NCBI GenBank assembly: GCA_948471205.1
Contig: CAOKRT010000010.1
Coordinates: 1-53,219 of the forward strand
Length of the DNA: 53,219 nt
DNA from: an uncultured Oscillospiraceae bacterium
GTDB lineage: Bacteria; Bacillota; Clostridia; Oscillospirales; Acutalibacteraceae
Reading direction: 5' to 3'
Part shown: positions 14,331-28,411 of the stretch, piece by piece
Layout: each line of letters opens with the position of its first letter
How positions within the stretch are numbered: the stretch's first letter is position 1
The notes under the pieces: model-generated
Told to the model about the DNA's origin: nothing
The model's input: only the letters and a program-made list of their open reading frames with translations
Databases searched by the model: none
Program-made: the position numbers and the translations under genes

Positions 14331-14362
14331 AAATGCTGTCTCCTCAAAAATAATGATAGTTT

Positions 14363-14391
14363 ATTGTAACATAACTAAAAAACATTTACAA
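14363..14391 (-). promoter_or_regulatory. Promoter of the M28 peptidase gene
   Basis: Minus strand: TTGTAA (14391-14386), 17 bases, TACAAT (14368-14363), placed about 30 bases before the ATG. It overlaps the region just after the DUF1015 gene. Confidence 0.65.
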
Positions 14392-14403
14392 GACTGTATT
14401 TTT

Positions 14404-15642
14404 TTATGAAAGATGATGAATAAACAGTCCTGAAAGCAGCTTTGGTTCAAACCATGTGGATTTGGGCGGCATAATCTTTCCGGCATCGGCAATCGCCATT
14501 AAATCCTCTGTTGTTGTGGGATACATTGAAAAAGCCAGCTTCATATCTGTTTTCGCACGCCGTTCCAGTTCGGCAAGCCCTCTTATACCGCCGATAAAAT
14601 CAATTCTGTCATCATTTTTGGGGTCTTTTATTCCAAGAACGGGATCTAATAGATTTTCCTGAAGAATCGAAACATCAAGCCTTGCCACGGGATCGCTTTC
14701 ATCTATGATTGTTTTCTTCGCTTTAAGCGAATACCATTCCTTATCAAGATACATGCCGAAAGTGTGGCGTTCAACAGGATGGAAAGGCTGTTCTTCCTTT
14801 TTTATTTCAAAATTTTCAAATACTCGGCTGAGAAATTCATCCGATGTCATTCCGTTTAAATCCTTTACAACACGGTTGTAATCCATAATTTCCAGTTCAT
14901 CATCCGGAAAAGCTACCGCAAGAAAGAAATTAAATTCTTCACTGCCTGTATATCCGGGATTTTCTTCTCTTCGCATCTGACCGACTTTTACCGCCGAAGC
15001 GCATCTGTGATGACCGTCTGCAATATAAAGCGAATCTATATCTTTAAAAAGGGATGACAAACGGTTAATTACCTTTATATCATCTACCACCCAAACTGTT
15101 TGCTGAACACCGTCCGACTCAAAATCATATACAGGTTCTTTTTCATTCATCCAAAGCGACACAGCCATATTAACAGCCGAATTTTTTCTGTAAGTAAGAA
15201 ATATGGGACCTGTGTTTGCATTTGTTGTGCTTACATGGTTAATGCGGTCCTTTTCTTTCTTTGCAAGCGTTTTTTCATGCTTTTTTATTACATTATTCAT
15301 ATAATCGTCAATAGACGCACAGCCTGCCAAACCAACCTGCACCCTGCCGTTCATAATCTGCCTGTAAATATAAAAACACGGCGTTTCATCCTGAATCATT
15401 GCTCCTGTGTTTTCCAGGGCCTCAAGATTTTCCTTTGCCTTCTGATAAATCTGCTTTGAATACATATCTGTTCCCTGCGGAAAGTCAATCTCCGCTCTGT
15501 CAACATGAAGAAAGGAAAGCGAATTGCCCTTAACCATCTGTCTTGCTTCCTCACTGCTCATAACATCATAAGGCAGCGCCGGAATAAGTGCCTGATTTCT
15601 TTTTGCAGGGCGGTATGCCCTGAACGCTCTGAAAATTGCCAT
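14404..15642 (-). CDS. DUF1015-family protein
   Basis: A 412-residue cytoplasmic protein with the DUF1015 landmarks: N-terminal FRAFRAYRPA and PALPYDVMS, the strongly conserved LYIADGHHRCASAV in the middle, and a late DRIDFIGG segment. The DGHHR motif looks catalytic (His/Asp-rich), and the family has been linked to SerC-neighbour and kinase-like roles in some bacteria, but no reaction can be assigned here. It starts two bases after coaX stops, so the pair is one operon read from the coaX promoter. Confidence 0.93.
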   Translation of the reverse strand: MAIFRAFRAYRPAKRNQALIPALPYDVMSSEEARQMVKGNSLSFLHVDRAEIDFPQGTDMYSKQIYQKAKENLEALENTGAMIQDETPCFYIYRQIMNGRVQVGLAGCASIDDYMNNVIKKHEKTLAKKEKDRINHVSTTNANTGPIFLTYRKNSAVNMAVSLWMNEKEPVYDFESDGVQQTVWVVDDIKVINRLSSLFKDIDSLYIADGHHRCASAVKVGQMRREENPGYTGSEEFNFFLAVAFPDDELEIMDYNRVVKDLNGMTSDEFLSRVFENFEIKKEEQPFHPVERHTFGMYLDKEWYSLKAKKTIIDESDPVARLDVSILQENLLDPVLGIKDPKNDDRIDFIGGIRGLAELERRAKTDMKLAFSMYPTTTEDLMAIADAGKIMPPKSTWFEPKLLSGLFIHHLS

Positions 15643-15644
15643 AA

Positions 15645-16415
15645 TTATTTACCCTGTACCTTGTTTTTTTCATAAATGATTCGCAAACCGTCTATCAGAA
15701 GATTTTCATCAACAATAACATCCAGTTTTGTGGTGCTTGCAACAGCCTTGCCAAGTCCGCCGGTTATAACCACGGTAGCCTTTTCTCCCAGTTCCTTTTC
15801 AAATCTGGAAACAAGACCTTCCAGCATAGCCGCCGTTCCGACAACAGAACCGCATTTCATGGCATCCACCGTATTTCTGCCTATAATTCTTGACGGAGCG
15901 GAAATATCAATCTGCGGCAGTTGCGCCGTTCCCTGTGAAAGTGCATTGATAGCCGTTTTTATACCACACATAATTGCGCCGCCGAGATGTGCGCCCGTTT
16001 TGTCTATTACAGACGCTGTGGTTGCCGTACCGAAATCAAAAATGATGGCAGGAAGAGGATATTTATTTATAACCGCAACATCTGTTACCACTATATCCGC
16101 CCCTGTTTCGGCAGGATTATCAAGCCTTATATTCAGCCCTGTTTTTATTCCCGGACCAACCACAAGCGCATCCACTGCGCACACAAGCCTTACACTTTTA
16201 ATAAGGGTTCTTACAAGCGCAGGCACAACGCTTGAAATAATTGCGCCGTCTATTTTTCCTACACCGTTTACCTCCAGAAATGTTTTGATTTTCATTGAAT
16301 ATTCAATTTCAGTTTCATTAACATTTGCCGAAAGTCTTCCTGTGCATATAATTTTTTCTCCGTCTATTACACCTAACACAATATTTGTATTTCCGACATC
16401 CATTGCAAGCAGCAT
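15645..16415 (-). CDS. coaX: Type III pantothenate kinase
   Basis: First step of coenzyme A synthesis, ATP + pantothenate to 4'-phosphopantothenate. The 256-residue ASKHA-fold protein shows LLAMDVGNTNIVLGV at the start, VVGPGIKTGL, ETGADIVV and the adenine/phosphate loop FDFGTATTASV. The type III enzyme is not inhibited by CoA and needs a monovalent cation. A GGGGAG ribosome site precedes the ATG. Its promoter lies immediately beyond the terminator of the phage cluster, so it is transcriptionally separate from that cluster although oriented the same way. Confidence 0.96.
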   Translation of the reverse strand: MLLAMDVGNTNIVLGVIDGEKIICTGRLSANVNETEIEYSMKIKTFLEVNGVGKIDGAIISSVVPALVRTLIKSVRLVCAVDALVVGPGIKTGLNIRLDNPAETGADIVVTDVAVINKYPLPAIIFDFGTATTASVIDKTGAHLGGAIMCGIKTAINALSQGTAQLPQIDISAPSRIIGRNTVDAMKCGSVVGTAAMLEGLVSRFEKELGEKATVVITGGLGKAVASTTKLDVIVDENLLIDGLRIIYEKNKVQGK

Positions 16416-16452
16416 TCTGCATTACTCCCCGCCACAAAATTTATTTCATTAT

Positions 16453-16481
16453 ATTATAGTATAAAATTTTCCTGTTGTAAA
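16453..16481 (-). promoter_or_regulatory. coaX promoter
   Basis: Minus strand: TTTACA (16481-16476), 17 bases, TATAAT (16458-16453). It starts three bases after the upstream terminator arm. Confidence 0.8.
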
Positions 16482-16484
16482 TAA

Positions 16485-16519
16485 AAAGAAAGGGCCGATT
16501 GTAAAATCCGCCCTTCTTT
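16485..16519 (-). terminator. Terminator closing the phage-derived cluster
   Basis: An imperfect 15-bp stem AAAGAA-GGGC-GATT pairing with AATC-GCCC-TTCTTT; read on the minus strand it is followed by TTTTTATTT. It separates the last phage gene from the coaX promoter. Confidence 0.85.
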
Positions 16520-16540
16520 ATTTTTAATAACCTGAAGCAA

Positions 16541-17020
16541 TTATCTGAAAAGTATATAACAATATGTTGCGCCGCTTCTGTTATATTCCACAGCTTCATC
16601 AATATCCGCCGCAATGGAAGGCGAGCTGATTACCAGATTTTTACCTGATATTGCCAGCCCTAAATTTGCCGTTCGTTTGGTGGCAAAGCCAAATCGGTTT
16701 TTATGCAGTTCGCCTTTAAAATCTGTAATACCAGGTGTTGTGGCACCGGCAAAAACAATTGCAAATGCAGGGTCAAATCCACAGCCTGTTTCAATGGTGC
16801 GTGCGGAGGAAGAACCGTTTCCTATATAAAATCCCACATAATGCGGCGTGTTCCATTTACTGCGTTCACTTGCCGAAATGTGCTTAACCGCATCACCGCT
16901 GTGTTCCTTAAATGCATTGTCTATGGTTGTATTGTCGTAATTAAAGTCTTCCCTTTTCGGAATATCTGTGCTTATCCATTTATTTAACGATAAAAAATCT
17001 GTTTTTTGCGCTGAACCCAT
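16541..17020 (-). CDS. Tail fibre-like/receptor-binding phage protein
   Basis: The last gene of the phage-derived cluster, 159 residues. It has an N-terminal collar-like part (KTDFLSLNKW, FNYDNTTIDNAFKEHSGD) and a C-terminal beta-rich, glycine-rich part (YIGNGSSSARTIETGC, SGATYCYILFR) like the tips of short tail fibres. I recognise no sequence family firmly; position after the gpI-like gene and the composition support the call. The start at 17020 follows AAAGGAG by five bases; an ATG six codons upstream would sit on that ribosome site. There is no fibre-assembly chaperone or lysis gene after it. Confidence 0.65.
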   Translation of the reverse strand: MGSAQKTDFLSLNKWISTDIPKREDFNYDNTTIDNAFKEHSGDAVKHISASERSKWNTPHYVGFYIGNGSSSARTIETGCGFDPAFAIVFAGATTPGITDFKGELHKNRFGFATKRTANLGLAISGKNLVISSPSIAADIDEAVEYNRSGATYCYILFR

Positions 17021-17040
17021 ATTTTCTCCTTTAACCAAAT

Positions 17041-17592
17041 TTATTTCATTCCGTCCAGTGTTATAAACGGAACAGAAAAGCTGTCAAGTTCAAACCATCT
17101 AAATGCTGCCTTATCCCACACTGCAAATGTACGACCGATATGATTATCAACAATCACCGTGCAGGGGTTTATATCATGAATCAGCTTTGAAAATGTTTCA
17201 AACTGCAGTCTGTCTTCTGTGCCGCCATAGCGAAAATCCATAATATTGCCGGACATGGAATAAGAGGAAGTGCCGTCTGCTTTCACAACACTGTCAAAGC
17301 GTGATTTTGAATATATGCACGGATTGTCGGACACCGCATCCGTTACAAGTTCCTTTGACAAACTTACGGAATCGGCAGGTTTTTCATTCACCATGCTCAA
17401 AAACATTGCCGTTCCTTCCTTTTCTGCCGTATCAATGAAAATATTTTTCATTATTCCTGCCATCTGATTGTGCACAAGACTTATTCCGGCCGCATACGCT
17501 TTCATTTCCGCTTTCGTTAAAGAGCCGCTGTTTACTGAAAGCCCTGTTTTTTTCATAAGATTTTCAAGTCGGAAAAAAATGTCATTATTCAT
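17041..17592 (-). CDS. Baseplate protein, gpI/YmfQ-like (putative)
   Basis: A 183-residue protein directly after the J-type baseplate gene, the place normally held by gpI/DUF2313-type proteins that help attach fibres in contractile-tailed phages. The N-terminal half is helical (LENLMKKTGLSVNSG; EMKAYAAGISLVHNQ), the C-terminal half beta-rich (PCTVIVDNHIGRTFAVWD). The sequence match to gpI is weak, and the call rests mainly on order and length. The start at 17592 overlaps the previous gene by eight bases and has GAGG eight bases upstream. Confidence 0.55.
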   Translation of the reverse strand: MNNDIFFRLENLMKKTGLSVNSGSLTKAEMKAYAAGISLVHNQMAGIMKNIFIDTAEKEGTAMFLSMVNEKPADSVSLSKELVTDAVSDNPCIYSKSRFDSVVKADGTSSYSMSGNIMDFRYGGTEDRLQFETFSKLIHDINPCTVIVDNHIGRTFAVWDKAAFRWFELDSFSVPFITLDGMK

Positions 17593-18655
17593 GTGTATAA
17601 ACCTCAACCGTATTCAGTTTTAAAAAATTAGTGCTTGCACATGCCACAGAAACCGCATTGGCAGTTCCCAGAAAAACATGAATATATTCCACACCCTCTA
17701 TACCGCTGCAATAAGCGGATATGGCAGATTCACTGTAATTCTTTCCAATTTTTTCACTGCTGCAAAATTCCGTTATGCGTGCTTTCACTTCCTGTTTGAT
17801 TACATTGGAATCATATCCGCTTAATATCTTTGCTTCCGCTGTAACGCTGAACGGCTGTTCCTTTGCCGCAGTAAATTCAAGTGCCGCCCCGCAAAGCACG
17901 GCAAATCCCATCATATCCGTAACCTGCTTTTTAAGATTATCACTTATAGCTCCGCTGTCTGTTTTAAGACACACCTTAACTGTATGGTTTTCTCCGCCGC
18001 TTACAACTGCATCGGATACATTATCCAATGTAAGCAGCATTTCTCTGACAGCGGCAGCCGAAACGGCATTTCTTCTGCTTTTATATGAGCCGAGTATGCG
18101 TTCCCGCAGTGCCTCATCGCTTTCCTCATCACAACCGCCAGAAAATTTTGTTTTGCTTACCGCCGATTCAAGATGCGCAGGCGGATTTACGGCAATCAGT
18201 TTTGCCCCGGCGGAAATATTATATTCGCTTCCTGTTTTTAAAGCCGAAACCTGCACTGCCGCAGAAAGCACATCTGCAGCTATGCTAACTGCATTTGTTG
18301 TTGAAAACTGAATAAACGGTTTCTCTGAAACAGAAAATACCGTTCCTGTCGGAATGGTAACCGCCGTTCCCAAACTGTTTTCTGTTCTGCTGACAGTAAT
18401 GCTGCCTGCAGCAAACGCAGGGCTTTTTCTTTTGATTTTTCTGAGCGCCGCATGACGGTCAAGATACGCACCGACTGCCGTCTGCGGAAAACTTTGCTTC
18501 ATAATAAAATCCCCGTACACGGAAACAGCATAAATTTCCGATGCCACAGCCTTAAATCTTGTTTCCAGGTCGGAAAGATTTTTAACAGGCTCTCCTTTTT
18601 CCTTGCAAAAAGCCGTTTTCATAGAATCAAGTATTTCATTGTATGTTAAACGCAT
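17585..18655 (-). CDS. Baseplate J-like protein (gpJ/XkdT family)
   Basis: A 356-residue baseplate wedge protein. Typical of the family are the N-terminal LTYNEILDSMK, the segment AVGAYLDRHAALRKIKRK (equivalent to GxxLDxxAxxxGxxRxxA) and then VTIPTGTVFS before a run of beta-sandwich repeats; ESDEALRERIL marks the central domain. In P2, PBSX and related contractile systems this protein forms the wedges around the hub. It overlaps the genes on both sides. No frameshift or internal stop is present, which argues against simple decay. Confidence 0.85.
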   Translation of the reverse strand: MRLTYNEILDSMKTAFCKEKGEPVKNLSDLETRFKAVASEIYAVSVYGDFIMKQSFPQTAVGAYLDRHAALRKIKRKSPAFAAGSITVSRTENSLGTAVTIPTGTVFSVSEKPFIQFSTTNAVSIAADVLSAAVQVSALKTGSEYNISAGAKLIAVNPPAHLESAVSKTKFSGGCDEESDEALRERILGSYKSRRNAVSAAAVREMLLTLDNVSDAVVSGGENHTVKVCLKTDSGAISDNLKKQVTDMMGFAVLCGAALEFTAAKEQPFSVTAEAKILSGYDSNVIKQEVKARITEFCSSEKIGKNYSESAISAYCSGIEGVEYIHVFLGTANAVSVACASTNFLKLNTVEVYTHE

Positions 18656-18954
18656 CTGTCAACAGACACCTCCCTTTCCGAATCATTGATAATCACTGTA
18701 AATTCAAATACATTCTGCTTTTGTTCAACGGATTTTATGTATACGCCGCCAATTCCATGCAACGCCTGATTTGCAAATGCAAAAGCATAATCCGCTGTAC
18801 TGAATGCCTGTGTGCCATAATTTTTATCAGGATAAAAACTTCCCCGTTCTGTTTTTAAAAGCATGGCAATGCTTGGCAAAAGTGTTTCCTGCTCTGTTTC
18901 CTTCGGTAACATTTCATCGTTAACACAGCCGATGCTGTCAGATTTTTCCGTCAT
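18646..18954 (-). CDS. gp25/XkdS-like baseplate wedge protein
   Basis: A 102-residue protein between the spike and J genes, the standard place of the gpW/gp25 (DUF2634) wedge subunit. The signature-like part is LLKTERGSFYPDKNYGTQ followed by alternating strands and VIINDSEREVSVDRCV. The ATG overlaps the stop of the spike gene (ATGA), with AAGGGAAGG as ribosome site. In contractile phages this subunit joins sheath and baseplate, which makes the absence of a sheath gene here notable. Confidence 0.68.
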   Translation of the reverse strand: MTEKSDSIGCVNDEMLPKETEQETLLPSIAMLLKTERGSFYPDKNYGTQAFSTADYAFAFANQALHGIGGVYIKSVEQKQNVFEFTVIINDSEREVSVDRCV

Positions 18955-19322
18955 AAAATAACCTTCCCTTCGGTATCTTTTATTTCTCCCTTAACGGTAA
19001 ACACAATGCCGTTTATCTCTACATTTCCGTTATTTTTTAATACAATTTTTGCACCGCCTGCCGATGTAACGGAAATTTCGCCCGCATTCAGATTGTCATT
19101 TTTCATTTTCGTTCCTGCACCGGCAGCTCCGTTTGCACTGTTTATTATAAGTATTTCTTCCCCGTCAGGTGCGTATGCCGAATAGCCGTACGGTGCGTAA
19201 TTCTGCACTTCTTCACTTTGCACGGTTGATACTGTTTTAAGCACGGAATTTCCGCCGATTGAAACAGTGCCGGATTCTGCTGCTGTTTGCTGTACATTTG
19301 CAAACCTTCTGCTAAGCCACAT
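18951..19322 (-). CDS. Baseplate spike protein (gpV/Mu gp45-like)
   Basis: A 123-residue protein with a short OB-like N-terminal region (QNYAPYGYSAYAPDGEEILI) and a repetitive beta-strand C-terminal part (GEISVTSAGGAKIVLKNNGN; VEINGIVFTVKGEI). That is the layout of the trimeric membrane-piercing spikes of Mu and P2. No PAAR or His-based iron-binding tip (HxH) is visible. It overlaps the hub gene by 11 bases and the wedge gene by four. The call combines order, size and strand pattern. Confidence 0.68.
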   Translation of the reverse strand: MWLSRRFANVQQTAAESGTVSIGGNSVLKTVSTVQSEEVQNYAPYGYSAYAPDGEEILIINSANGAAGAGTKMKNDNLNAGEISVTSAGGAKIVLKNNGNVEINGIVFTVKGEIKDTEGKVIL

Positions 19323-20259
19323 AATTTATCAACTCCCCGTTCAGCTTCTTTTTCAAAACAACAGCGGTTTTTTCGCCGCTGCGGTTTTTGCTTTTAACAA
19401 TTTCGCTTACATAAAAATCTTCATTTATTTCAAACATTTTGAATGCCGCCGCAACTCTGTCAAATATTCTGAAATCGCAGTCTCCTGCAAATTCCGCACA
19501 AACGGAATAGTAATTATCAAGTGCACTGTTCATTTTCTGCTGTACAATCATTTCGCGCTGACCGAGCGTGGCTGAGGAAAGATTGAAAAGACGTTTTCTT
19601 TGAATACCCATTCGGCAGGCAAGTTCACTTTTAAGGTGATAAGAATAATTGTCTGCCGAATTTATTTTGTAATCAATATCGCTGATCAGCACGCCCCTGT
19701 TTATGATATAGGATAAAGAAAGAATCCTGTAATCATCAAGCCTTTTTATCTCTTTACTTTGCTCATATATCCTCAGTTCGTTATCAGGCGTTGCATAAAC
19801 AGGGGCTTTGCACTGTGCAGAAATATAATCATTTATTGCGCCGTAACAGCTTGTCCCCTTTGAAACAAGATAACTGTGTTCCGAATAAATTTCCGGCAAA
19901 CAGCATTCAAAACCCAGTTCCTTTGCATTTGAAAACCAAATCTGTCTTGAAGACGGGTTGCTGTATCGGCACGGCACAGCCTCATTATCAACCAGCAGTG
20001 CGGCACTGCTTCTGGCATAAATGTAACAGTTTATTCCGTTTTTACTGAATTCTGTTTTCTGCTTATCACAAAAGCCGTTGAATACAAGCCTTTCATCACA
20101 GTATGCTTTAACAATGCATATTTCGCCGATACTGCTTTGGCTGATAAAATTAAGCCGCAGCCCGTCACAGGGTGCCTGCGCATCACTGACCAGTTCATAG
20201 GATACAATTTCGTCTGCCGCCGCAGGATTGCCGTTTACATCAAATAATTCAAATTTCAT
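19312..20259 (-). CDS. Tail hub / late-control D-like protein (XkdQ/Mu gp44 type)
   Basis: A 315-residue beta-rich protein beginning MKFELFDVNG and containing YIYARSSAALLVDNEAVPC, reminiscent of the hub-domain motif (ArsxxxLLxxxA) of gpD-like proteins, then IYSEHSYLVSKGTSCYGAI and a long C-terminal beta region. In contractile systems it forms the trimeric hub between tube and spike. The ATG overlaps the LysM gene stop (ATGA). Sequence-level recognition is moderate; the order LysM-hub-spike-wedge-J strengthens it. Confidence 0.75.
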   Translation of the reverse strand: MKFELFDVNGNPAAADEIVSYELVSDAQAPCDGLRLNFISQSSIGEICIVKAYCDERLVFNGFCDKQKTEFSKNGINCYIYARSSAALLVDNEAVPCRYSNPSSRQIWFSNAKELGFECCLPEIYSEHSYLVSKGTSCYGAINDYISAQCKAPVYATPDNELRIYEQSKEIKRLDDYRILSLSYIINRGVLISDIDYKINSADNYSYHLKSELACRMGIQRKRLFNLSSATLGQREMIVQQKMNSALDNYYSVCAEFAGDCDFRIFDRVAAAFKMFEINEDFYVSEIVKSKNRSGEKTAVVLKKKLNGELINYVA

Positions 20260-20765
20260 TCCAGCACCACCCTGTCACCGCTTTTAACACAAAACGGATT
20301 TTCAAAATGATTTATCTGCATAAGTTTTTCAATAGGGACACTGCATCTGAAAGATATATCAAACATATTTTCATTTTCCTGTGCATATGTAAAACCGAAA
20401 TTATATTCGCCGTTTTTTACACCCTGTGCTTCAATAAAAGAAACCGAATAGGAAATACAGTTTTTCTTTGCGTCATCCCTGAGTTCCAATAAGGAAAGAA
20501 ATGCATAATAACAGCTTCCGTCCGGCAGAAAAAGCCAGCCCGGCGTACCTCTGCTGCGAAGAATTTTCAGCCGCTGTGCGCTTATACTTCGTTCACTGCC
20601 CCAAAAACTGCCCTCACAGCAAATTTTTGCGGCATTGTGTGACATATTGAAAACCACACCTGCGCCCCATAATACCGGCTTCTCATTTATGTTTTCGGAA
20701 AGTTCTGTTTTTACAACAGCAGGATTTGAAGGAAATTCAAAATCCTTATATTTCATTTTAATCAT
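20256..20765 (-). CDS. LysM-containing hub adaptor (XkdP-like)
   Basis: A 169-residue protein. The last 45 residues read as a LysM fold (ENMFDISFRCSVPIEKLMQI...NHFENPFCVKSGDRVVL), and the first 110 residues are a beta-rich domain with GTPGWLFLPDGS. In PBSX-like elements a LysM protein (XkdP) sits directly before the hub gene and links hub to tail tube or tape measure. Here the gene upstream is a 36-residue ORF, not a tape measure. The start codon overlaps the stop of that small ORF. An ATG three codons later (20756) is possible. Confidence 0.72.
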   Translation of the reverse strand: MIKMKYKDFEFPSNPAVVKTELSENINEKPVLWGAGVVFNMSHNAAKICCEGSFWGSERSISAQRLKILRSRGTPGWLFLPDGSCYYAFLSLLELRDDAKKNCISYSVSFIEAQGVKNGEYNFGFTYAQENENMFDISFRCSVPIEKLMQINHFENPFCVKSGDRVVLE

Positions 20766-20872
20766 CCGCCTTCATCCTCCCCGAATCCACTATCGAACCT
20801 TTTAGAATCAAGGCGTATATATTCCGAAATTTCTTTCATTTCATCATAACTTTTTTCATTATCCGTTTTCAT
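20762..20872 (-). CDS. 36-residue phage-cluster microprotein
   Basis: A short open frame beginning MKTDNEKSYDEMKEISEYIR and ending with an acidic, glycine-rich tail. It has AGGGGTG just upstream of the ATG, its start overlaps the end of the preceding gene by 14 bases, and its TGA overlaps the ATG of the LysM gene (ATGA). These junctions match the overlap style of the rest of the operon, which is the main support. It sits exactly where sheath, tube, chaperone and tape-measure genes would normally be. No family recognised. Confidence 0.6.
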   Translation of the reverse strand: MKTDNEKSYDEMKEISEYIRLDSKRFDSGFGEDEGG

Positions 20873-21272
20873 CACCCCTGAAGCTTATTTCATTATTAAA
20901 TTTAAAAACGGCCCTCATTACATAACATTCCGATACCGTGTCTGCTTTTATTTCCGAAATACTTATGGATACAATATTGAAATCAGCCGTATTCCTGCAA
21001 ATTCTGAACACAAACTGCTCCGGCACGGTTTTGTCGTTTGAAAACGGAACAAAAATATCTGCAAACACGCTGAACGTACCGCTCTTCACATCACTTCCCA
21101 GCGAACTGTCGTCAACATCAATGCTTTTTATTCCGGCAGCAATTACAGGCTGTTTAAGCACAGTGGGCTTAACTGCTCCGGGAAAGGCCCTGGTTATCTG
21201 CACAGAGGCAAAAAAACGGTCATCCAGAATTCTGCCCAGAAATTCAGCAAGAATCTTTTCAGCTTGCATCAT
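20859..21272 (-). CDS. Phage connector/tail-completion protein (putative)
   Basis: A 137-residue protein with an N-terminal helix (AEKILAEFLGRILDDRFF) followed by beta strands; the overall shape fits tail-terminator or tail-completion proteins (gpU type) that cap the top of a tail, but no sequence motif proves it. It lies after two connector-sized genes and before the LysM protein. The start is one of two adjacent ATGs at 21272 and 21269, after GGGAAG, and overlaps the previous gene by 14 bases. It does not look like a tail tube protein. Confidence 0.6.
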   Translation of the reverse strand: MMQAEKILAEFLGRILDDRFFASVQITRAFPGAVKPTVLKQPVIAAGIKSIDVDDSSLGSDVKSGTFSVFADIFVPFSNDKTVPEQFVFRICRNTADFNIVSISISEIKADTVSECYVMRAVFKFNNEISFRGDENG

Positions 21273-21612
21273 TTTCTTCCCACACCTTTCTTAAAACGCC
21301 TGTATAATAGAGTATTTGATTTCCCGTTTTAACCGAATCTCTTTTGCGAAACAGATATTTATTTCCGTCTGCATAAACAACCGCACTGTCGGACAACGCA
21401 AGAATATTATGATCAAACGGACCGATATAGGTATAATAATCCGTACTCACCCTGCCGATTTCCGTTTCCTTTAATTCAAAATCAGATTTATTGTTTTTCC
21501 ATCTTGGCTGAATCACTGCAAAAAACGGAGGCGATATCCAGTTTCCGTCTTTAAAAAAAATCTTTTCTCCTGTTTTTTCCAGACCGTATTTGATCTTATA
21601 TGCCCTGTTCAT
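21259..21612 (-). CDS. Head-tail connector-like protein (putative)
   Basis: A 117-residue, mainly beta-strand protein with many aromatic residues (ISPPFFAVIQPRWKNNK; YYTYIGPFDHNIL). Its size and place, immediately after the gene that follows the capsid gene, suit a head-closure/connector subunit. The ATG follows the previous stop without any gap. I do not recognise a family. The reading frame is fully open and the overlap with the next gene is conserved in style, so I take it as a real coding gene. Confidence 0.6.
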   Translation of the reverse strand: MNRAYKIKYGLEKTGEKIFFKDGNWISPPFFAVIQPRWKNNKSDFELKETEIGRVSTDYYTYIGPFDHNILALSDSAVVYADGNKYLFRKRDSVKTGNQILYYTGVLRKVWEENDAS

Positions 21613-21990
21613 TCAAACACCTAAAAAAGCAAAGCAGTTGTTCAAATCCGCCTGTGCCTCAGGCTTCATAAGCTTTCTGACATTTTCCGCCGCAAAAGAC
21701 AGGCAGTTTTCAGCGCTTTCCTGCAAATTGAATTCCTGTTTAAAAGAAACATCGCCGGCTGTGAATGATGTAATATTGTCTGAACTGTCTGCACTGCAGC
21801 ATATTGCCTTATATGCCAATGCCGCGGCATATTGAATTACTCTGGGGTCATTTTCATTTACATCCTCTTTTATTGAATCGGCAGCAGACAATACTGCCGC
21901 TGAAATAAGCGAAGAATATCTTTCTGTTTCGCTGTCTGAAAACCCTCCCATCAGCGCAACGCTTTGTTTAACAAGCGCTGTATCTATCAT
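21613..21990 (-). CDS. Head-tail adaptor-like protein (putative)
   Basis: A 125-residue, mostly helical protein (SETERYSSLISAAVLSAADS; DPRVIQYAAALAYKAICC) located directly after the major capsid gene. Helical proteins of 100-130 residues in this place are usually the first head-tail adaptor (gp6/gp15-like), binding the portal ring. A ribosome site resembling GGGAAG lies about ten bases before the ATG. Function is inferred from position and predicted helical content. Confidence 0.62.
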   Translation of the reverse strand: MIDTALVKQSVALMGGFSDSETERYSSLISAAVLSAADSIKEDVNENDPRVIQYAAALAYKAICCSADSSDNITSFTAGDVSFKQEFNLQESAENCLSFAAENVRKLMKPEAQADLNNCFAFLGV

Positions 21991-22025
21991 AGCTTCACTT
22001 CCCTTCCGTTACCAAATATACATTC

Positions 22026-23012
22026 TTAGTATTTCAAAATTTTAACCGCATCACTGAATATAGTTGAAAAACCTGTGATGGTTGTAATTGCCGCACGTTC
22101 AAGCTGGCGGTCAATCAACTTGTCAAATTCTGTTAAAACACCGCCTGCCTGAACCTTTTCAAGCGCCGCGCTGTTGTCAAGGGCTATAACAGATTTTTCC
22201 TCCATTCCGTTAATTTTAAGCACTTCCGCACCGAACGGAGTAATCATTCTGCCGGTACCGTGAAAGCTCTGTCCCGCATAGGAATCCTTAAATTCGGAAA
22301 CACCCAGCATGTCTGCAAGAGCAGCAGGTGCAGCAAGAAAAGTAGTTGCGCTGTAAGGAGAAAGTGCATCCCATACTTTTACAAGATCGGCATAATTAAC
22401 GGCTGTGCCCGAGCCTGCAATTTCTTCAGGAGATGATGCAATGATAACATCAATAGCATCTTTAAGCTGTGTTCTTGCAATATACGCACCAATCTGTTTG
22501 AGTGTAACGGTAAACAAATCCAGTTTCTGAAATTTGATTGCTTCATAGGATGCAACCAGCATTCTTCCTCGTTTTTTAAGTGTTGTAAGCTTTTCTTTTG
22601 CTTTAATGTTTGTTTCCGGAATCGCATCTCCCTCCTGCACAACGGCAAGCTCCTTTTCCGCTTCGGAAGGTACACTTTCTATTGCACGGTAATCCAGTGA
22701 ATCTATATTTGTTGTTGCCGCAATAATTTTCGGAAGAATATCCTGTTCTTCAAGACCCTGCTGAACAGCACGGGAAATATATTCCGGAAAAAGGGCCGCA
22801 GAATCTGTTGTTTTAAAAAATTTTGAAACCGTATCCGAGCCCAGCCCCGAAACCTTAATATCAAATCTTTTAAGCTGGCGCTGATAGGCATCCAGACCTT
22901 CATAATCTGTGCCTACATAGTTTTCGGACGGATCCAGTTCTTCAAGTGACGCTGTAAATCCTTTTGAAGTTGTATAAAGTCCTTTTTCAAGTTTAATATT
23001 ATCAAATGCCAT
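22026..23012 (-). CDS. Major capsid protein (HK97 fold)
   Basis: A 328-residue coat protein. The C-terminal half shows typical HK97-fold features: a helix-rich region (ARTQLKDAIDVIIASSPEEI), a capsid-like ALSPYSATTFLAAPAAL spine, FGAEVLKINGMEEKSVIALD, and an end in a strand-rich domain. The N-terminal 60 residues could be the E-loop/N-arm. It follows the protease/scaffold gene with AAGGAG before the ATG. An intact capsid gene of normal length supports particle formation. Confidence 0.85.
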   Translation of the reverse strand: MAFDNIKLEKGLYTTSKGFTASLEELDPSENYVGTDYEGLDAYQRQLKRFDIKVSGLGSDTVSKFFKTTDSAALFPEYISRAVQQGLEEQDILPKIIAATTNIDSLDYRAIESVPSEAEKELAVVQEGDAIPETNIKAKEKLTTLKKRGRMLVASYEAIKFQKLDLFTVTLKQIGAYIARTQLKDAIDVIIASSPEEIAGSGTAVNYADLVKVWDALSPYSATTFLAAPAALADMLGVSEFKDSYAGQSFHGTGRMITPFGAEVLKINGMEEKSVIALDNSAALEKVQAGGVLTEFDKLIDRQLERAAITTITGFSTIFSDAVKILKY

Positions 23013-23024
23013 TTTTATTTCTCC

Positions 23025-23993
23025 TTATATTTTGAATTCATGAAAATTATTCTTCTGTCTGTTTTTGATTCCTGCAAGCTGAGGCGCAGGCATATTTTCA
23101 GTCGCCTGCTGTTTTTCGAAAGCAGATTTAAAAGCCAAAAGCTCTTTTGCAGTCATAACTGCCGCAACACCGCCGAACACTTTTAAATCCATTTTCGGAA
23201 CTGCCTTTGCACAAAGTGATACAAGGTCTTTTACAAGATTTTTCTTATATTCCTCGCCCAATGCCGCAAGTTCCTCTTTTTCTTCAATATAAGAGCGTAT
23301 CTCCTTTGCCTCTTTATTTGAAAGCGTTACCGCACTTTCATCTGTTTCAAGAAATTTTTTAATATCCTGCATATTAAAATTCCCTCTTTCTTTATTAAAT
23401 GATTTTGTAACACCGGCATCACGCTGAGCAGGCACAGCAACAAAACTCCATTCATATGCATCTGCCGCATTGCTTAAAATGCAAAAACAAATTTTCCCGC
23501 CGTATTCTCTTCCGCTGATATGACTGCATTCCCCGCTTTTTCTGCTTTTTCCGCATATGGAACAAACAGAAGACTGCATGGAACACGAAACGGAAACCTC
23601 TTTTTTTATACCTGCGTCTATATCGGTAATAAATGCTTTATTTTCATCGCTTCTTACCATATATGCCTTTGCCCTGAGTGCATAATAATCTTCGCCGTCT
23701 GCTGTTTTTCTTCCTTCGATTTTCTCAACCCACGTATCAAAAATACGTGCCGTCTGGTCGGATGATTTCATGGAATGATCCTTTATGCCCGTTTTTCCCA
23801 GAAACAGCGTTGCAAGCTCATGCAGGGCGCTGACGGCAAATTTTTCATAATCCCGGTCCACATCATTGCCGCATAAGGTAAGATTGAAGATATAAAGTTC
23901 ATCTTCTGAAAATTCTTTTCTTGTATACTGCCTTATTTTTTCATAATCACTGCTTGCCGGCACACAGCATTTTTCTATATACCCGTCCTTCAC
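23025..23993 (-). CDS. Prohead protease fused to a scaffold-like tail
   Basis: A 322-residue protein. The N-terminal 200 residues look like a prohead serine protease: candidate catalytic His in GIKDHSMKSSDQTAR and Ser in KKEVSVSCSM. After the Ser there is a Cys-rich insert, C-S-I-C-G-K followed by GECSH, which could bind zinc. The second half, from about residue 205 (MQDIKKFLETDESAV), is helical and acidic, like a scaffold that is removed on maturation. The ATG overlaps the portal stop (ATGA). An internal start near 205 could yield scaffold alone, as in some phages. Confidence 0.75.
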   Translation of the reverse strand: MKDGYIEKCCVPASSDYEKIRQYTRKEFSEDELYIFNLTLCGNDVDRDYEKFAVSALHELATLFLGKTGIKDHSMKSSDQTARIFDTWVEKIEGRKTADGEDYYALRAKAYMVRSDENKAFITDIDAGIKKEVSVSCSMQSSVCSICGKSRKSGECSHISGREYGGKICFCILSNAADAYEWSFVAVPAQRDAGVTKSFNKERGNFNMQDIKKFLETDESAVTLSNKEAKEIRSYIEEKEELAALGEEYKKNLVKDLVSLCAKAVPKMDLKVFGGVAAVMTAKELLAFKSAFEKQQATENMPAPQLAGIKNRQKNNFHEFKI

Positions 23994-25132
23994 GCATATA
24001 CCTCCCCTAATATTTTCTCAGTCTGCGCATCATAAAGCCGGGCTCTTGCCGTTTCCGTTTCATCCTGAAGCGTAATGGAATCCCACACAATTTCCGCACT
24101 TGCGGCAATGCCGTTTATCTGCAGATATTTTTTCCCTATTTTTAACAGCACAGGGTTCAGTATTCTTCTGTATGCCTCCAGTTCAGTTGTAAGCGCATCT
24201 GCCTGCTGCGAACTCATTCGTTCTGTCGTTGACCAGCTAAAACCGAACATATACGGCGGCAGACCTGTTTTTGCTATAATCTGTTCCAAAAGCTGTTTTA
24301 CGGGAATTTCGCTATCCAGCACAGTGCTGTCTGCACCGATTACCTTTACCGAAACATCCCCAACGGCAACAAAATCCTTCACTGTGTCTGTACTGCTCAT
24401 AGCTTCACGCCAAGCCTCGGCCATCTGCGCTGCCCGCTCTTTCGCATTGTTTGCGTCGGCGCCGTCGCTTTGCGGTTTATACGTAACGGAATATCTTAAA
24501 TTGCCTGCATGCTTCCAGTTTTCACCTATGGTGTTATAAATGGTAAGCAAGATATCTGAAATAAAAGGAAGTCCTCTCAGCAGACTGGTTCCGAGAATGT
24601 TTCCCGGTTCAGGATTCAATGCCGAAAACAGAATCAAATCCTGATTCACAAGCTTTTCATTTCCGTTATAAAATTCCACATCAAGGTTATTTGGCGCACG
24701 TTTTACCTCAAGTGCATTAAGTTCTCCGTTATAAAGCGCATAAAATCCGTTGTCATCCACAATCATTTCCCCAACTGCAGAACCATATGTCAGAAGTTCT
24801 GAAAGATATGTTGATACAAACGAATAAATGCCCGTCTGATTCCCGCCGACATTAAGCTGATTAAAAAAGGAATTCATTTCCCTGTCAATTTTTGCATTCC
24901 CCGTTTCAAAATGAAATCCCTCGCACAGTCTTACTATTTTGCATATTGCCGTATCAATTACAGGTATGCTTTCACGCAGATAAGAATAAATCCGGTTATT
25001 AAAACTCATTGGCATGCTTGTGTTTATCTGCCAAAAAGGGTGTTTTGAATATATACTTGTCTGCACGGCGGCTGCGCCTGTCTGCGCACTGCGCATTTTT
25101 TTACTGCTGTGAAATAAGCCCAATTGTTTCAC
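23990..25132 (-). CDS. Phage portal protein
   Basis: A 380-residue protein forming the DNA entry ring. Features: SYLRESIPVIDTAICKIVRL near the N terminus, ALYNGELNALEVKRAP, NPEPGNILGTSLLRGL, the helical-stem part, then TGLPPYMFGFSWSTTERMS, a typical late portal motif. I chose GTG at 25132: GAAAGGA precedes it and it overlaps the terminase stop in the form GTGA, indicating coupling. A longer frame open to 25171 would overlap the terminase more deeply. Slightly short for SPP1-type portals (about 500) but normal for PBSX-like and HK97-like members. Confidence 0.85.
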   Translation of the reverse strand: MKQLGLFHSSKKMRSAQTGAAAVQTSIYSKHPFWQINTSMPMSFNNRIYSYLRESIPVIDTAICKIVRLCEGFHFETGNAKIDREMNSFFNQLNVGGNQTGIYSFVSTYLSELLTYGSAVGEMIVDDNGFYALYNGELNALEVKRAPNNLDVEFYNGNEKLVNQDLILFSALNPEPGNILGTSLLRGLPFISDILLTIYNTIGENWKHAGNLRYSVTYKPQSDGADANNAKERAAQMAEAWREAMSSTDTVKDFVAVGDVSVKVIGADSTVLDSEIPVKQLLEQIIAKTGLPPYMFGFSWSTTERMSSQQADALTTELEAYRRILNPVLLKIGKKYLQINGIAASAEIVWDSITLQDETETARARLYDAQTEKILGEVYA

Positions 25133-26388
25133 ATCCTTTCCACTGCAACGGAAAACAATGCGTCTTCGCATTTTTCGTATACTACGGTTGAAACGAAATA
25201 CCGTATATCGTCCATTGCATGATCGTTTTCTTTTTTGGGAGCATCTCTTTTTATACCGTTATCCCATCGGTAAACCGAAAATTCGCGTATTGTATCCGCA
25301 CAGCAGGGATAAAAGAATAATGTATCATTTTTTAGCGCCTGGCAAACAAGATTGATTCCTTTAAGCACATCGTTATCCGCTTTTATTACCCGGTATTCCC
25401 CATGCCGCCTGATTACTTCAATAAAACTGGCTGCAGACGGGTCAATCACAACTGCTTCTATCTTTTTTCCGTTTGCAAGAGTTTTCAGATTTTCATAATA
25501 TTCTTCATCTGTAAGCTGAACGCCCGTATCCCTGCTGCTGTGATAAAATTCTTCTATGCGAAACCAACCGTTCTCTGCCTTGCCCCAAAGCCCAAGGGAA
25601 AACGGATTTACAGTGCCGTAATCACACGACAAATAATAGGAAGAGAATTTCCCGCCGCCGCTTTTTTTGATATGGCGGCTGCTGTCAAACATGGGATAAA
25701 CCAGTCCGTCAGCAACAGTCCATCTGCCGTTAATAAATCTTTCATAAAAAGCGCCGCTGTATAGGCTTTTGTATCTGTTAATAACCGCAGGAGAAAGCGA
25801 CGGATTATCTTCCATCCTGAAATGAAGGTAAAGCATATTCTTTGCATCCTTTTTCTGAATCCATTCCGTATAAAACCAATGAAACGGATGCTCAGGATTG
25901 CAGTTAAACCAGAATTTTGCGTGTTCAAGCGAACATCTGGCAAGCGCCTGTTCAACAAACGACCGCGGCATCAGCGCCGCCTCATCCAGAAACACTCCGC
26001 CCAAAGTCATTCCCTGAATCAGCGAGGCAGAAGATTCATCGCGGCCGCCGAAAACGTAAAATCTGTTTTTTACGCCGCCCTTTTCAATTTCAATCATATT
26101 CCGGCTTATTTTATAATCGCAGCTGAATCCAAGGGACAAAAGTGTCGGAAGCAGCGGTGTTACCACATTTCTTTTCAGTGATGCAATTGTTTTGCCGCAA
26201 ATGGCAAAGGAGGTGTCGCAAAAGTGGTAAAACGCCCAGCTCACAAAAGAAATACTCATACAAAGTGTTTTGCCGGAACGAACCGCCCCGTCACAGATAA
26301 CACCGTTTTTTTCTTTAAACGGGCTGGCTTCACACCACCAGGTAAGCACCGCAAGCTGTTTTTTTGAAAAAGAAATAAAATTATTCAT
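25129..26388 (-). CDS. Terminase large subunit (PBSX family)
   Basis: DNA-packaging motor with ATPase and nuclease. Walker A is D-G-A-V-R-S-G-K-T at 33-41, Walker B GGVFLDEAAL near 130-139 followed by the coupling region; the RNase H-like nuclease has SCDYGTVNP, VVIDPSAASF and late acidic DHAMDDIRYF. The 419-residue length is normal. Start 26388 has GAGG upstream and overlaps the small-subunit gene by eight bases; an earlier ATG at 26436 has no ribosome site. PBSX-type terminases usually package by headful, which matters for a possible gene-transfer role. Confidence 0.93.
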   Translation of the reverse strand: MNNFISFSKKQLAVLTWWCEASPFKEKNGVICDGAVRSGKTLCMSISFVSWAFYHFCDTSFAICGKTIASLKRNVVTPLLPTLLSLGFSCDYKISRNMIEIEKGGVKNRFYVFGGRDESSASLIQGMTLGGVFLDEAALMPRSFVEQALARCSLEHAKFWFNCNPEHPFHWFYTEWIQKKDAKNMLYLHFRMEDNPSLSPAVINRYKSLYSGAFYERFINGRWTVADGLVYPMFDSSRHIKKSGGGKFSSYYLSCDYGTVNPFSLGLWGKAENGWFRIEEFYHSSRDTGVQLTDEEYYENLKTLANGKKIEAVVIDPSAASFIEVIRRHGEYRVIKADNDVLKGINLVCQALKNDTLFFYPCCADTIREFSVYRWDNGIKRDAPKKENDHAMDDIRYFVSTVVYEKCEDALFSVAVERM

Positions 26389-26713
26389 TGCTTTCCTCAC
26401 GAAAGGAACCGAACACGCCGCGTGCGCTGTCTTCAAGCGCTTTGTAAAAGCTGATCGGCTGATTGGAGGTATCGCTTTCTGTGTCCCTTAATCTTTCAAG
26501 TGCTTTGATTCTGTCAAAAAACTTAATCTCCATTCCGCCGCCTTTTGGACGCTTGATTTCACTTATGTTAAACAAATCAAGGATCGGCAGTCTTTCCATT
26601 ATTTCATTTTCATCCGCAAAAAGAAGGGCTATTGCATCTTTTATCTCTCCGAAGGCAAGGCGCCTTAATCCGCTGCGCACCTCTTCAATTGCTGTTTTCT
26701 TTTTTCGTCCCAT
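26381..26713 (-). CDS. Terminase small subunit-like protein
   Basis: A 110-residue, charged helical protein, first gene of the phage-derived operon. The segment SEIKRPKGGGMEIKFFDRIK is a strongly conserved-looking motif in clostridial small proteins beside PBSX terminases. The N-terminal half (AIEEVRSGLRRLAF) could be DNA-binding, but a clear helix-turn-helix is not evident. AGAGGTGAAG precedes the ATG. The gene overlaps the large subunit. No regulator, integrase or replication gene lies upstream; purA, read in the opposite direction, comes next. Confidence 0.75.
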   Translation of the reverse strand: MGRKKKTAIEEVRSGLRRLAFGEIKDAIALLFADENEIMERLPILDLFNISEIKRPKGGGMEIKFFDRIKALERLRDTESDTSNQPISFYKALEDSARGVFGSFREESNE

Positions 26714-26896
26714 ATCTTCACCTCTCGATTATTGCGAAGAGAAAAGCTCTTCATAAATACTGTGTACAAACGAAAAAAATAGTGTAAAATACGCATAATC
26801 TTTCCGTTTTTCGGCTGAAAAAATTTTTTTATTCGGATTTCATCTATAAATCAAACCGATTTCCTATAGAATCCTGTAATTAAGACAAATTATTTA
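26714..26896. other. Upstream region of the phage-derived operon
   Basis: About 180 bases with no gene. It holds a small palindrome GAAGAG-AAAAG-CTCTTC (26736-26752) in the presumed leader of the phage cluster and an A6-T7 tract (26818-26830) likely to be bent. The best minus-strand promoter candidate is TTGATT-17-TAAAAA ending near 26820, which is weak. I found no repressor binding repeats and no attachment-site-like direct repeats. Confidence 0.4.
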
Positions 26897-26925
26897 TTGA
26901 CTTAATATTGCGGTTATTATATAAT
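26897..26925 (+). promoter_or_regulatory. purA promoter
   Basis: TTGACT (26897-26902), 17 bases, TATAAT (26920-26925). The start would be near 26932, exactly at the first base of the leader hairpin. Confidence 0.88.
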
Positions 26926-26931
26926 AAATCA

Positions 26932-26982
26932 AGGCACGGGAACTTATTTTGATTCCGAGCCTGTTTTGTTTTTCTAAAACAG
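26932..26982 (+). promoter_or_regulatory. purA leader with two overlapping hairpins
   Basis: Hairpin 1 pairs AGGC-CGG-GA (from 26932) with the arm ending CCG-GCCT at 26962 and is followed by GTTTTGTTTTTC, resembling an intrinsic terminator. Hairpin 2 pairs CTGTTTT (26961-26967) with AAAACAG (26976-26982) and shares two bases with hairpin 1. Overlapping alternatives just after the transcription start suggest attenuation or 5' end protection; not proven. Confidence 0.5.
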
Positions 26983-27012
26983 ACAATCTAAGAATAATTA
27001 GGAGTATTCATT

Positions 27013-28293
27013 ATGGTTAGAGCTATAGTAGGCGCCAACTGGGGTGACGAAGGCAAGGGTAAAATTACCGATATGTTTGCCGCGCAGGCAGATATTGTTA
27101 TTCGTTTTCAGGGCGGTGCCAATGCAGGCCACACAATTATTAACGAACACGGCAGATTTGCACTGCATCTTATGCCAAGCGGTGTTTGCAGTGAAAACAC
27201 CACTTGTATCATCGGCAACGGTGTGGCGCTTGATATTAACAAGTTTATCAATGAGCTTAACGATATAAAAAAAGCAGGGCTTAATCCCCAGCTTCTTGTT
27301 TCAGAACGCTGCCAGATTCTTATGCCTTATCACATTCTTCTGGATGAATACGAAGAAGAAAGGCTCGGAAAAGCTGCTTTCGGTTCAACCAAAAGCGGTA
27401 TTGCTCCGTTTTTCTCTGATAAATATGCAAAAATAGGCATTCAGGTTAACGAACTGTTTGACGAAGAAACTTTAAAGTCAAAAATCAAAAATATCTGTAC
27501 ACTGAAAAATTTAACGCTCAAACATGTATATAACAAACCGCTTCTTGATGAAGACGAGCTTTTTGCTGTTTGTATGGATTACAAAGAAAAAATTGCACCA
27601 TTTGTCTGCGATACGCATACATATATTCAGAATGCAATTAAAAGCGGAAAAGAAATTCTGCTTGAGGGTCAGCTCGGAACACTGAAAGATCCTGATTTCG
27701 GAATTTACCCTATGGTTACTTCCTCTTCCACACTTGCCGGCTACGGCTGTGTGGGCGCCGGTATTCCCGCAAATCAGATAAAAGATATTGTTGTTGTTAC
27801 AAAAGCATATTCCAGTGCAGTCGGCGCAGGTGAATTTGTTTCTGAAATTCTTGATGAAGAAGAAGCACAGGAACTTCGTATTCACGGGGGCGATAAAGGC
27901 GAATTCGGCGCAACAACCGGAAGACCGCGCCGTGTTGGCTGGTTTGACTGTGTTGCAACACGCTACGGCGTTGAATGCCAGGGTGCAACACAAGTGGTTA
28001 TGACCGCACTTGACTGCCTTTCTTATCTTGAAGAAATCAAGGTTTGTGTTGGTTATGAGCTTAACGGAGAAGTGATAGATTATTTCCCGACAACACCGAT
28101 TCTTAAAAATTGCAAGCCTGTGCTTAAAACAATGAAAGGCTGGCATTGTGATATAAGAGGCATCAGAAATTACAGCGAGCTTCCGCAGGAAACAAAGGAT
28201 TATGTGGAATTTATCGAAAAGCAGATTGGCTATCCGATTACAATGGTTTCAAACGGACCTGAAAGAGAAGCAATTATTTACAGAAACAAATAA
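27013..28293 (+). CDS. purA: Adenylosuccinate synthetase
   Basis: IMP + aspartate + GTP to adenylosuccinate, the committed step to AMP. The 426-residue protein starts with the GTP-binding GANWGDEGKGKITD and continues with GGANAGHTI, the IMP-binding TKSGIAPFFSDKYAK region, EGQLGTL and the C-terminal TTGRPRRVGWFD. Length is standard. TTAGGAG precedes the ATG. Own promoter, structured leader and strong terminator, so it is a single-gene transcript divergent from the phage cluster. Confidence 0.98.
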   Translation: MVRAIVGANWGDEGKGKITDMFAAQADIVIRFQGGANAGHTIINEHGRFALHLMPSGVCSENTTCIIGNGVALDINKFINELNDIKKAGLNPQLLVSERCQILMPYHILLDEYEEERLGKAAFGSTKSGIAPFFSDKYAKIGIQVNELFDEETLKSKIKNICTLKNLTLKHVYNKPLLDEDELFAVCMDYKEKIAPFVCDTHTYIQNAIKSGKEILLEGQLGTLKDPDFGIYPMVTSSSTLAGYGCVGAGIPANQIKDIVVVTKAYSSAVGAGEFVSEILDEEEAQELRIHGGDKGEFGATTGRPRRVGWFDCVATRYGVECQGATQVVMTALDCLSYLEEIKVCVGYELNGEVIDYFPTTPILKNCKPVLKTMKGWHCDIRGIRNYSELPQETKDYVEFIEKQIGYPITMVSNGPEREAIIYRNK

Positions 28294-28301
28294 AAGACAT
28301 A

Positions 28302-28333
28302 AAAAACCGCGGGAAGCAGTTCCTGCGGTTTTT
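28302..28333 (+). terminator. Terminator after purA
   Basis: A 14-bp stem from AAAAACCGCGGGAA to TTCCTGCGGTTTTT (one G-T wobble) with tetraloop GCAG, eight bases after the purA stop. Confidence 0.95.
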
Positions 28334-28370
28334 GTTTATTATATGATTAAAATATATTTTACTGTATCTA

Positions 28371-28399
28371 TTGATTTCATATTTGCTTTACTGTATAAT
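28371..28399 (+). promoter_or_regulatory. Promoter of the DUF1846 gene
   Basis: TTGATT (28371-28376), 17 bases, TATAAT (28394-28399). The start near 28406 lies just before a strong hairpin. Confidence 0.85.
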
Positions 28400-28411
28400 A
28401 TGTAAGTACAG

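Follow-up and report, generated by a model that had tools for sequence, protein, structure and literature searches.

The closest published counterpart of the locus treated here appears to be FpGTA of Faecalibacterium, likened to it by its published description (Nat Commun, 2026; PMC12946183). It has been reported that FpGTA, a proposed gene transfer agent (GTA), forms ~40-nm capsids without identifiable tails that hold ~9 kb of DNA, that a 10.5-kb operon carries its TerS, TerL, portal, scaffold and capsid genes (capsid and portal records RCH50849.1 and RCH50851.1), and that a second operon carries baseplate, fibre and lysis genes; the authors allow for very short tails or for their loss in purification. 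In the same source, packaging of random host DNA is published for Faecalibacterium and some relatives, and similar packaging in other genera and families, where four metagenome-assembled genomes (MAGs) were searched and a strong candidate operon was found in one (PMC12946183). The locus treated here is an operon of phage structural genes in a stretch of 53,219 nucleotides (the window; positions 1 to 53,219 of contig CAOKRT010000010.1, assembly GCA_948471205.1) from an uncultured bacterium of the order Oscillospirales, family Acutalibacteraceae. It is probably a domesticated, vertically inherited operon, most likely making a GTA-like particle. Comparison with related loci clearly indicates that head, portal and a catalytically complete terminase have been kept under purifying selection, that the ancestor carried a sheath, a tube, a chaperone-like gene and a short tape measure, and that in the window's genus these tail parts are all gone save the C-terminal ~30–40 residues of the tape measure.

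Operon Layout and Conservation Within the Genus

The contig is part of a 1.85-Mb genome in 28 contigs (98.9% complete). Sixteen minus-strand open reading frames (ORFs), all open, run from a TerS-like to a fibre-like protein between positions 16541 and 26713; nearly all abut or overlap, as the initial annotation had described, and the GC content of the operon equals that of its flanks. The earlier statement that head and baseplate genes are intact is upheld by the open frames, with strong PHROGs or Pfam matches for TerL, portal, capsid and baseplate J, a strong match of the protease/scaffold-position protein to a family without a function, and mostly weak or positional assignments for the others; the baseplate is of the contractile type (J, hub and LysM adaptor, the last two recognised weakly or through homologues). 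Between the 137-residue gene and the LysM gene lies a single small ORF (20762-20875), so the gap noted earlier is real, but the product is 37 residues long from a GTG start and not 36. In agreement with the annotation, PHROGs and Pfam revealed none of the sixteen genes as an integrase, lysis or replication gene, and no direct repeat of at least 16 nt links both flanks within 14300-28400; genes beyond the operon in the window were judged by eye, except four flanking genes checked with Pfam. In the genome as a whole, one copy of TerL and one baseplate J, that of the operon, were detected; two profiles (PF04984 and A2) found no sheath, and a profile less sensitive than these found no tube.

Of the 37 genus genomes, 33 have the portal gene, among them the window's own, and in a 34th (G020) a cut contig holds the distal operon genes; genomes G800-G803 were searched for sheath and tube alone, making 41 genus genomes in those searches. 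In the 38 loci examined with tblastn (L119, L043 and 36 that belong to the genus or to its near relatives among named MAGs), order, strand and gap are identical wherever the contigs reach, and the few genes overlooked by tblastn were recovered with hidden Markov models (HMMs). Portal identity across the genus is 58–81%; among the genus matches listed, TerL is 71–83% identical to the window copy and the TerS-like protein 52–76%, the range over TerL, portal, protease and capsid being 48–84%. The ratio of nonsynonymous to synonymous rates (dN/dS, Nei-Gojobori) lies between 0.03 and 0.42 over 15 genes in 11 different pairs where both rates were computable, and 12 of 14 gene-locus cases of stop codons are confined to the first 16 or last 8 codons. 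The genes coaX and/or DUF1015 lie downstream on the same strand in 23 of the 29 genus loci that hold the fibre gene with at least 1.6 kb beyond it; of the coaX and purA flanks proposed for comparison, this side is therefore conserved, but no good match to purA was seen in the stretches fetched around other module copies. The proposal of a domesticated particle is thus borne out by a gene set and gap that recur genus-wide, by dN/dS well below 1, by the single copy and by a tree that tracks host families.

An extra gene for a decoration-like protein of ~117 residues stands between protease and capsid in many genus loci (e.g., L089, 9173-9558) and is absent in the window.

Distribution and Inheritance in the Order

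Among 394 genomes of the order, a portal profile built from 8 rows detected exactly one copy in each of 70 (E 1e-108 to 1e-190), and 35 of 43 genomes of the window's family were positive. In a sample of the class, 8 of 391 genomes were positive, all from the same order, and none of the 373 genomes of other orders gave a match. In a quick-method tree built from 81 rows of TerL, portal and capsid, the 11 rows of family f26 form one clade (support 92), as do the 2 rows of f15 (support 100) and all 42 rows of f1 together with three unlabelled rows (support 98); the f14 rows group with L060 and the single f2 row (support 87). Family labels need 9 changes on this tree against a minimum of 6 and a shuffled mean of 35.4, and genera with several rows form clades, with the exception of g38, which stands at an open fork. 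The single copy and the tracking of host families point to vertical inheritance and not to repeated infection. Of the traits of a GTA, the module shows vertical inheritance, purifying selection, an intact set of head and packaging genes, and a cluster without recognised integrase or replication genes; of those of a functional prophage, integration, replication and lysis genes were not recognised in the operon.

Record MT835508.1 (L221), filed as 'Bacteriophage sp.' from human faeces in Mexico, is a piece of bacterial chromosome with rnf, ribosomal protein, rpoA, secY and adk genes (by eye) and a head-only module at ~18629-24272. The module of L223 also stands beside housekeeping genes, which makes two of the five such records inspected. 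L221 could be packaged host DNA if the record derives from purified virus particles; that MT835508 and MT835769 belong to a virome paper on virus-like particles (PMC8361208) is guessed from their country and source.

Stepwise Loss of the Tail in Relatives

Layouts, determined as HMM presence in 113 loci, are nearly uniform inside genera and fall into six classes. Class A has a sheath, usually a tube, and often a chaperone-like gene and a tape measure; it comprises 16 of 20 f14 loci, 3 of 11 f26 loci, the single f2 locus, one f7 locus, one f1 genus (L167) and three IMG/VR contigs, the sheath-plus homologues including L060, L156-L164, L166-L168, L170, L172 and others. The sheath of L060 is above the cut-off for both Pfam sheath models. 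Class B, with a tube but without a sheath, comprises 14 f1 loci from nine genera and, from g137 of f14, three loci additionally without hub and J; class C, the window type, has neither sheath nor tube (also L204, L045 and L047). In class D the terminator is gone too (L185, L188, L198-L200 and L209); in class E, found in f26, capsid, adaptor, LysM-like gene and hub are followed by host genes; and in class F head and terminator alone are followed by host genes (f1 g38; L177 and L203 inspected). The gene after the sheath in relatives is likely the tail tube, a name resting on its position, on phrog_985 (2.2e-5, L060) and on a best PDB match to a tail tube (8q01, E 0.042).

On the tree, rooted on the long branch L220 and with one ancestral presence assumed, losses number 7 for the sheath, 8 for the tube (on a weak profile), 7 for J and 4 for LysM. 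Portal and capsid are kept, and terminase with few exceptions, while the tail is lost; among relatives, measurable dN/dS ratios are 0.02–0.56 over nine pairs, of which seven belong to reduced classes, head-only included. Sheath-bearing relatives indicate that the ancestor had a short contractile tail.

A full prophage at this site in a related strain, which the initial annotation had named as the finding that would speak for a fresh deletion, was sought: profile A2 found a sheath in none of the 41 genus genomes and recovered 5 of 5 sheath-plus controls. Profile A3 gave no convincing tube in the same 41 genomes and missed 2 of 6 controls. Full-tail versions are confined to other genera among the sampled genomes. 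In a search for a second baseplate in reduced relatives, PF04865 detected no baseplate J in 19 of 20 genomes of the reduced classes; G308 has a two-piece J match on a contig other than the module's. Beyond these, the genus member G015 carries an additional J on a separate contig, and four J were counted in G208.

PF04984 matched three of 36 genomes, including a single genus member, G011, where the gene is unrelated: this phage sheath gene (G011:C1:12765-13229; L226) lies elsewhere in that genome, likely in a separate prophage. In L071 (6440-7419), a truncated sheath gene is closely joined to the second half of a tape measure, which is perhaps an independent, even recent, tail deletion, or an assembly artefact.

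The Remnant of the Tape Measure

A common motif, such as ELDRLFQRDARRYDGGF, lies within the final 40 residues of the ORF that precedes the LysM gene in 16 sheath-plus loci. An HMM of this tape-measure C-terminus, run against 4748 ORFs of genus-type loci, had as its 17 best matches, without exception, the short ORF just upstream of LysM (best E 2.6e-8, window copy 0.0014, best reversed decoy 0.83). In the reverse direction, an HMM of 32 genus ORFs was run against 3357 ORFs of 22 sheath-plus loci, and its 15 best matches were tape-measure C-termini (best 4.1e-6, with E below 0.01 for just two). A short ORF with the motif is present in all 32 genus loci holding the LysM gene. Position and motif together identify the 37-residue ORF as the remainder of the tape measure. 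The tape measures of sheath-plus members are already short, 100–289 residues against 796 in a Tepidibacter prophage.

Six of the 22 sheath-plus loci (L168, L186, L214, L218, L219 and L071) were dropped from the training set, the longest ORF before LysM being in another frame or unsure; in L168 and L186 the motif was found in another ORF, and in the f26 loci L214, L218 and L219 no clear motif was observed. In f1 loci that have the tube only or no terminator, 6 of 18 short ORFs before LysM match the tape-measure HMM below E 0.001, and the remaining 12 match more weakly, resemble it by eye alone, or have no resemblance; L094 and L106 have ORFs of fewer than 30 residues and were hence missed in the HMM table.

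Terminase and Neck

The Walker A Lys and Walker B Asp-Glu of TerL are invariant in all 108 rows reaching these columns, and three nuclease Asp in all 110, the motifs presumably having their usual roles in the ATPase and nuclease; loci L206, L215 and L216 were left out of this count over the 113 loci. The motor is nearly always kept and the tail repeatedly lost, which suggests that DNA packaging is the selected job, and packaging may be expected of the window's copy.

The initial annotation had raised the 137-residue product, among others, as a possible tube. Modelled from 17 sequences (predicted local distance difference test score, pLDDT, 83.6), its predicted fold is that of a tail terminator, with tail terminators heading the fold matches; a single-sequence model gave no match at E ≤1e-3, lambda terminator chains ranking top. 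A cryptic tube in this gene is rejected on the basis of this fold. In L182, L184 and L043 the terminator ORF runs on into a fibre domain (E 5e-31 to 5e-28), which corresponds to the C-terminal domain of the fibre-like protein; L173 has a single ORF with terminator and LysM-protein matches, and in L183 the terminator ORF runs on into a stretch matching the LysM-protein HMM. These fusions suggest that the terminator contacts distal parts directly once the tube is gone.

Gene Assignments in the Window

PHROGs and Pfam matches are weak for hub, spike, gpI-like and LysM proteins; the TerS, gp25-position, 125-residue and 117-residue products have no or weak family matches and are named by position and relatives (Table 1). 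In the Tepidibacter plasmid prophage, the gene standing at the protease/scaffold position encodes an XkdF-like protease. Homologues in L060 match more clearly: that of the LysM adaptor has LysM (2.7e-17) and DNA_circ_N (1.6e-7), and that of the hub a Gp44-like match (1.4e-5) just under the cut-off. The fibre-like protein is the probable receptor-binding end. The single terminator described earlier at the operon end is seen as a hairpin with a T run just 3' of the last gene (-20.7 kcal/mol, z -2.8); a simple terminator scan gave 20 sites against 11.2 expected, this hairpin not among them, and a promoter scan gave 29 sites against 24.9 expected.

Table 1. Operon genes and adjoining features, with the evidence for each name.
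Feature	Position	Strand	Basis
TerS-like small terminase, 110 aa	26381..26713	-	precedes TerL; weak phrog_2606 (0.02)
TerL large terminase, 435 aa	25129..26436	-	phrog_2 2.5e-48; Terminase_6N 2e-14; ATPase and nuclease motifs intact
Portal, 393 aa	23990..25171	-	phrog_30703 1.2e-115; used for the order-wide survey
Head protease/scaffold-position protein, 322 aa	23025..23993	-	phrog_16951 4.7e-89 (family without function)
Major capsid protein, 328 aa	22026..23012	-	phrog_3922 3.1e-82; Phage_capsid_4
Head-tail adaptor-position protein, 125 aa	21613..21990	-	position; HMM match in 108/113 loci
Stopper-position protein, 117 aa	21259..21612	-	position; HMM match in 93/113 loci
Predicted tail terminator, 137 aa, last neck ring	20859..21272	-	predicted fold
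Tape measure C-terminal remnant, 37 aa	20762..20875	-	reciprocal disjoint HMM searches
LysM/gp53-like baseplate adaptor, 169 aa	20256..20765	-	LysM E 0.0014, below cut-off
Baseplate hub, 315 aa	19312..20259	-	phrog_177 0.0074
Spike-like protein, 123 aa	18951..19322	-	phrog_25991 1.2e-12 (unknown function); Mu gp45 0.075
gp25/W-position baseplate protein, 102 aa	18646..18954	-	between spike and J; conserved; no family match
Baseplate J, 356 aa	17585..18655	-	phrog_6 1.1e-53; PF04865 7.4e-36
gpI-like tail protein, 188 aa	17041..17607	-	after J; phrog_521 0.0092
Fibre-like protein, 165 aa	16541..17038	-	phrog_33092 3.9e-6 (unknown function); weak tail matches
Intrinsic-terminator-like hairpin with T run	16478..16520 (approximate)	-	folding energy
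coaX and DUF1015, conserved downstream neighbours	14404..16415	-	Pfam

Far from the operon, at the contig end, a fragment at 52354-52971 carries what is taken to be an RHS-core-like motif, and a small ORF adjoins it at 51789-52337.

Proposed Mechanism and Alternative Explanations

If the operon makes a GTA-like particle, TerL would pack host DNA into a small capsid, and the neck (portal, adaptor, stopper and terminator) would attach straight to a baseplate of LysM protein, hub, spike, gp25-position protein, J and gpI, in which the tape-measure peptide may act as an assembly seed or as a plug in the hub. The fibre would attach to a sibling cell, the DNA would exit via the short neck with no contraction involved, much as short-tailed phages deliver theirs, and release and regulation, for which no genes were found, would reside outside the operon. 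It is also possible, and put forward tentatively, that the module is an ancient order-wide GTA lineage that started with a short contractile tail and repeatedly discarded the sheath, then the tube, then the baseplate, with the tape-measure peptide given its own job and the terminator fused into a receptor- or baseplate-bearing ring. The tail would then have been discarded because DNA delivery to close kin needs just head, neck and binding domain, and the persistence of the peptide after tube loss would reflect a job of its own in seeding or plugging the hub.

Several observations weigh against a domesticated GTA-like operon. Particle, packaged DNA and transfer are, in this genus, predictions from gene content, and no lysis gene was recognised in the operon. 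The module was undetected in 324 of the 394 sampled genomes of the order and in 3 of 37 of the genus (G001, G002 and G007), of which G002 and G007 have the DUF1015 neighbour with no phage gene beside it and G001 has neither. Baseplate genes diverge faster than TerL, portal, protease and capsid, with 20–70% identity among the genus matches listed; stops lie well inside terL of L035 (two) and the portal gene of L038 (one); and single dN/dS ratios are rough because many dS values exceed 1. Moreover, in the g33 loci L206, L215 and L216 the terminase is not beside the portal; of the three g33 genomes, one (G374) encodes a clear TerL, 44% identical, on a separate contig, whereas G224 gave a weak match and G344 none.

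The alternative offered in the initial annotation, a recently deleted prophage, might draw on the unrecognised integrase, lysis and replication genes and, within the genus, on the internal stops of L035 and L038. A recent deletion is ruled out by the conserved gap and layout and by dN/dS, and a recently deleted or decaying prophage is scarcely credible for an operon whose gap, gene order and flank are shared throughout a genus with 58–81% portal identity, with dN/dS far below 1, and with a single copy whose tree tracks families. A bacteriocin- or PBSX-like killing particle, which would hold DNA in the head but be selected for attack on competitors, fits the gene order, this being that of PBSX/xkd-type contractile modules such as the Tepidibacter prophage; it is nevertheless unlikely, since the part lost is the killing engine (sheath 7 times, tube 8 times, J 7 times) and capsid, portal and nearly always terminase are kept. 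Tailocins typically keep the tail and lose the head.

In a split operon, a second locus would supply the tube or other tail parts of a complete particle. The length of the tape measure sets the room for the tube, so a tape measure cut to ~37 residues leaves none; in addition, no sheath was found in the 41 genus genomes at 5 of 5 controls, the baseplate is already inside this operon, and the terminator fusions of relatives suggest direct contact with distal parts. Such a split is thus quite unlikely, even though the baseplate, fibre and lysis genes of FpGTA stand in an operon of their own (PMC12946183), G374 has its TerL on another contig, and a divergent tube could escape a profile that missed 2 of 6 control genomes. 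Finally, a capsid for phage interference (piracy or decoy) or a storage compartment would suit the head-only versions of g38, which are under purifying selection, but would have no need for the terminase catalytic residues, which are invariant, nor does it agree with the fibre domain retained in several reduced versions, and it is very unlikely.

Comparison with Known Systems

The module is a candidate GTA gene set for much of an order that has members among gut MAGs and human faecal records, and its relatives form a natural tail-reduction series in which the kept parts reveal which tail parts are needed. A tape measure reduced to a peptide of ~37 residues would allow a hub-side function to be studied separately from length measurement.

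FpGTA and the locus in the window both occur in gut Clostridia and both have one operon with TerS, TerL, portal, scaffold and capsid, whereas the baseplate of FpGTA is encoded in a second operon and that of the window in the same operon, in which no lysis gene was recognised; the accessible part of the FpGTA description holds no order-wide family, contractile-tail ancestor, stepwise tail loss or tape-measure remnant (PMC12946183). In searches of open-licence papers, none of those listed had a title or abstract start describing the order-wide module or its tail series. Among other systems, RcGTA has a tube and a tape measure, and PBSX has a sheath, a tube, a long tape measure and lysis genes. 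The operon resembles PBSX/xkd modules in its order terS-terL-portal-protease-capsid-connectors-[tail]-LysM-hub-gp25-J-gpI-fibre and differs in that sheath, tube, long tape measure and lysis genes were not seen in it. The prophage on plasmid NZ_CP120734 of Tepidibacter hydrothermalis, the best capsid match in a plasmid collection (41.5% identity), likewise has the same gene order, but it is plasmid-borne and carries a sheath-like gene (PF04984 28.3 bits, cut-off 31.4), a 796-residue tape measure, a holin and a peptidase.

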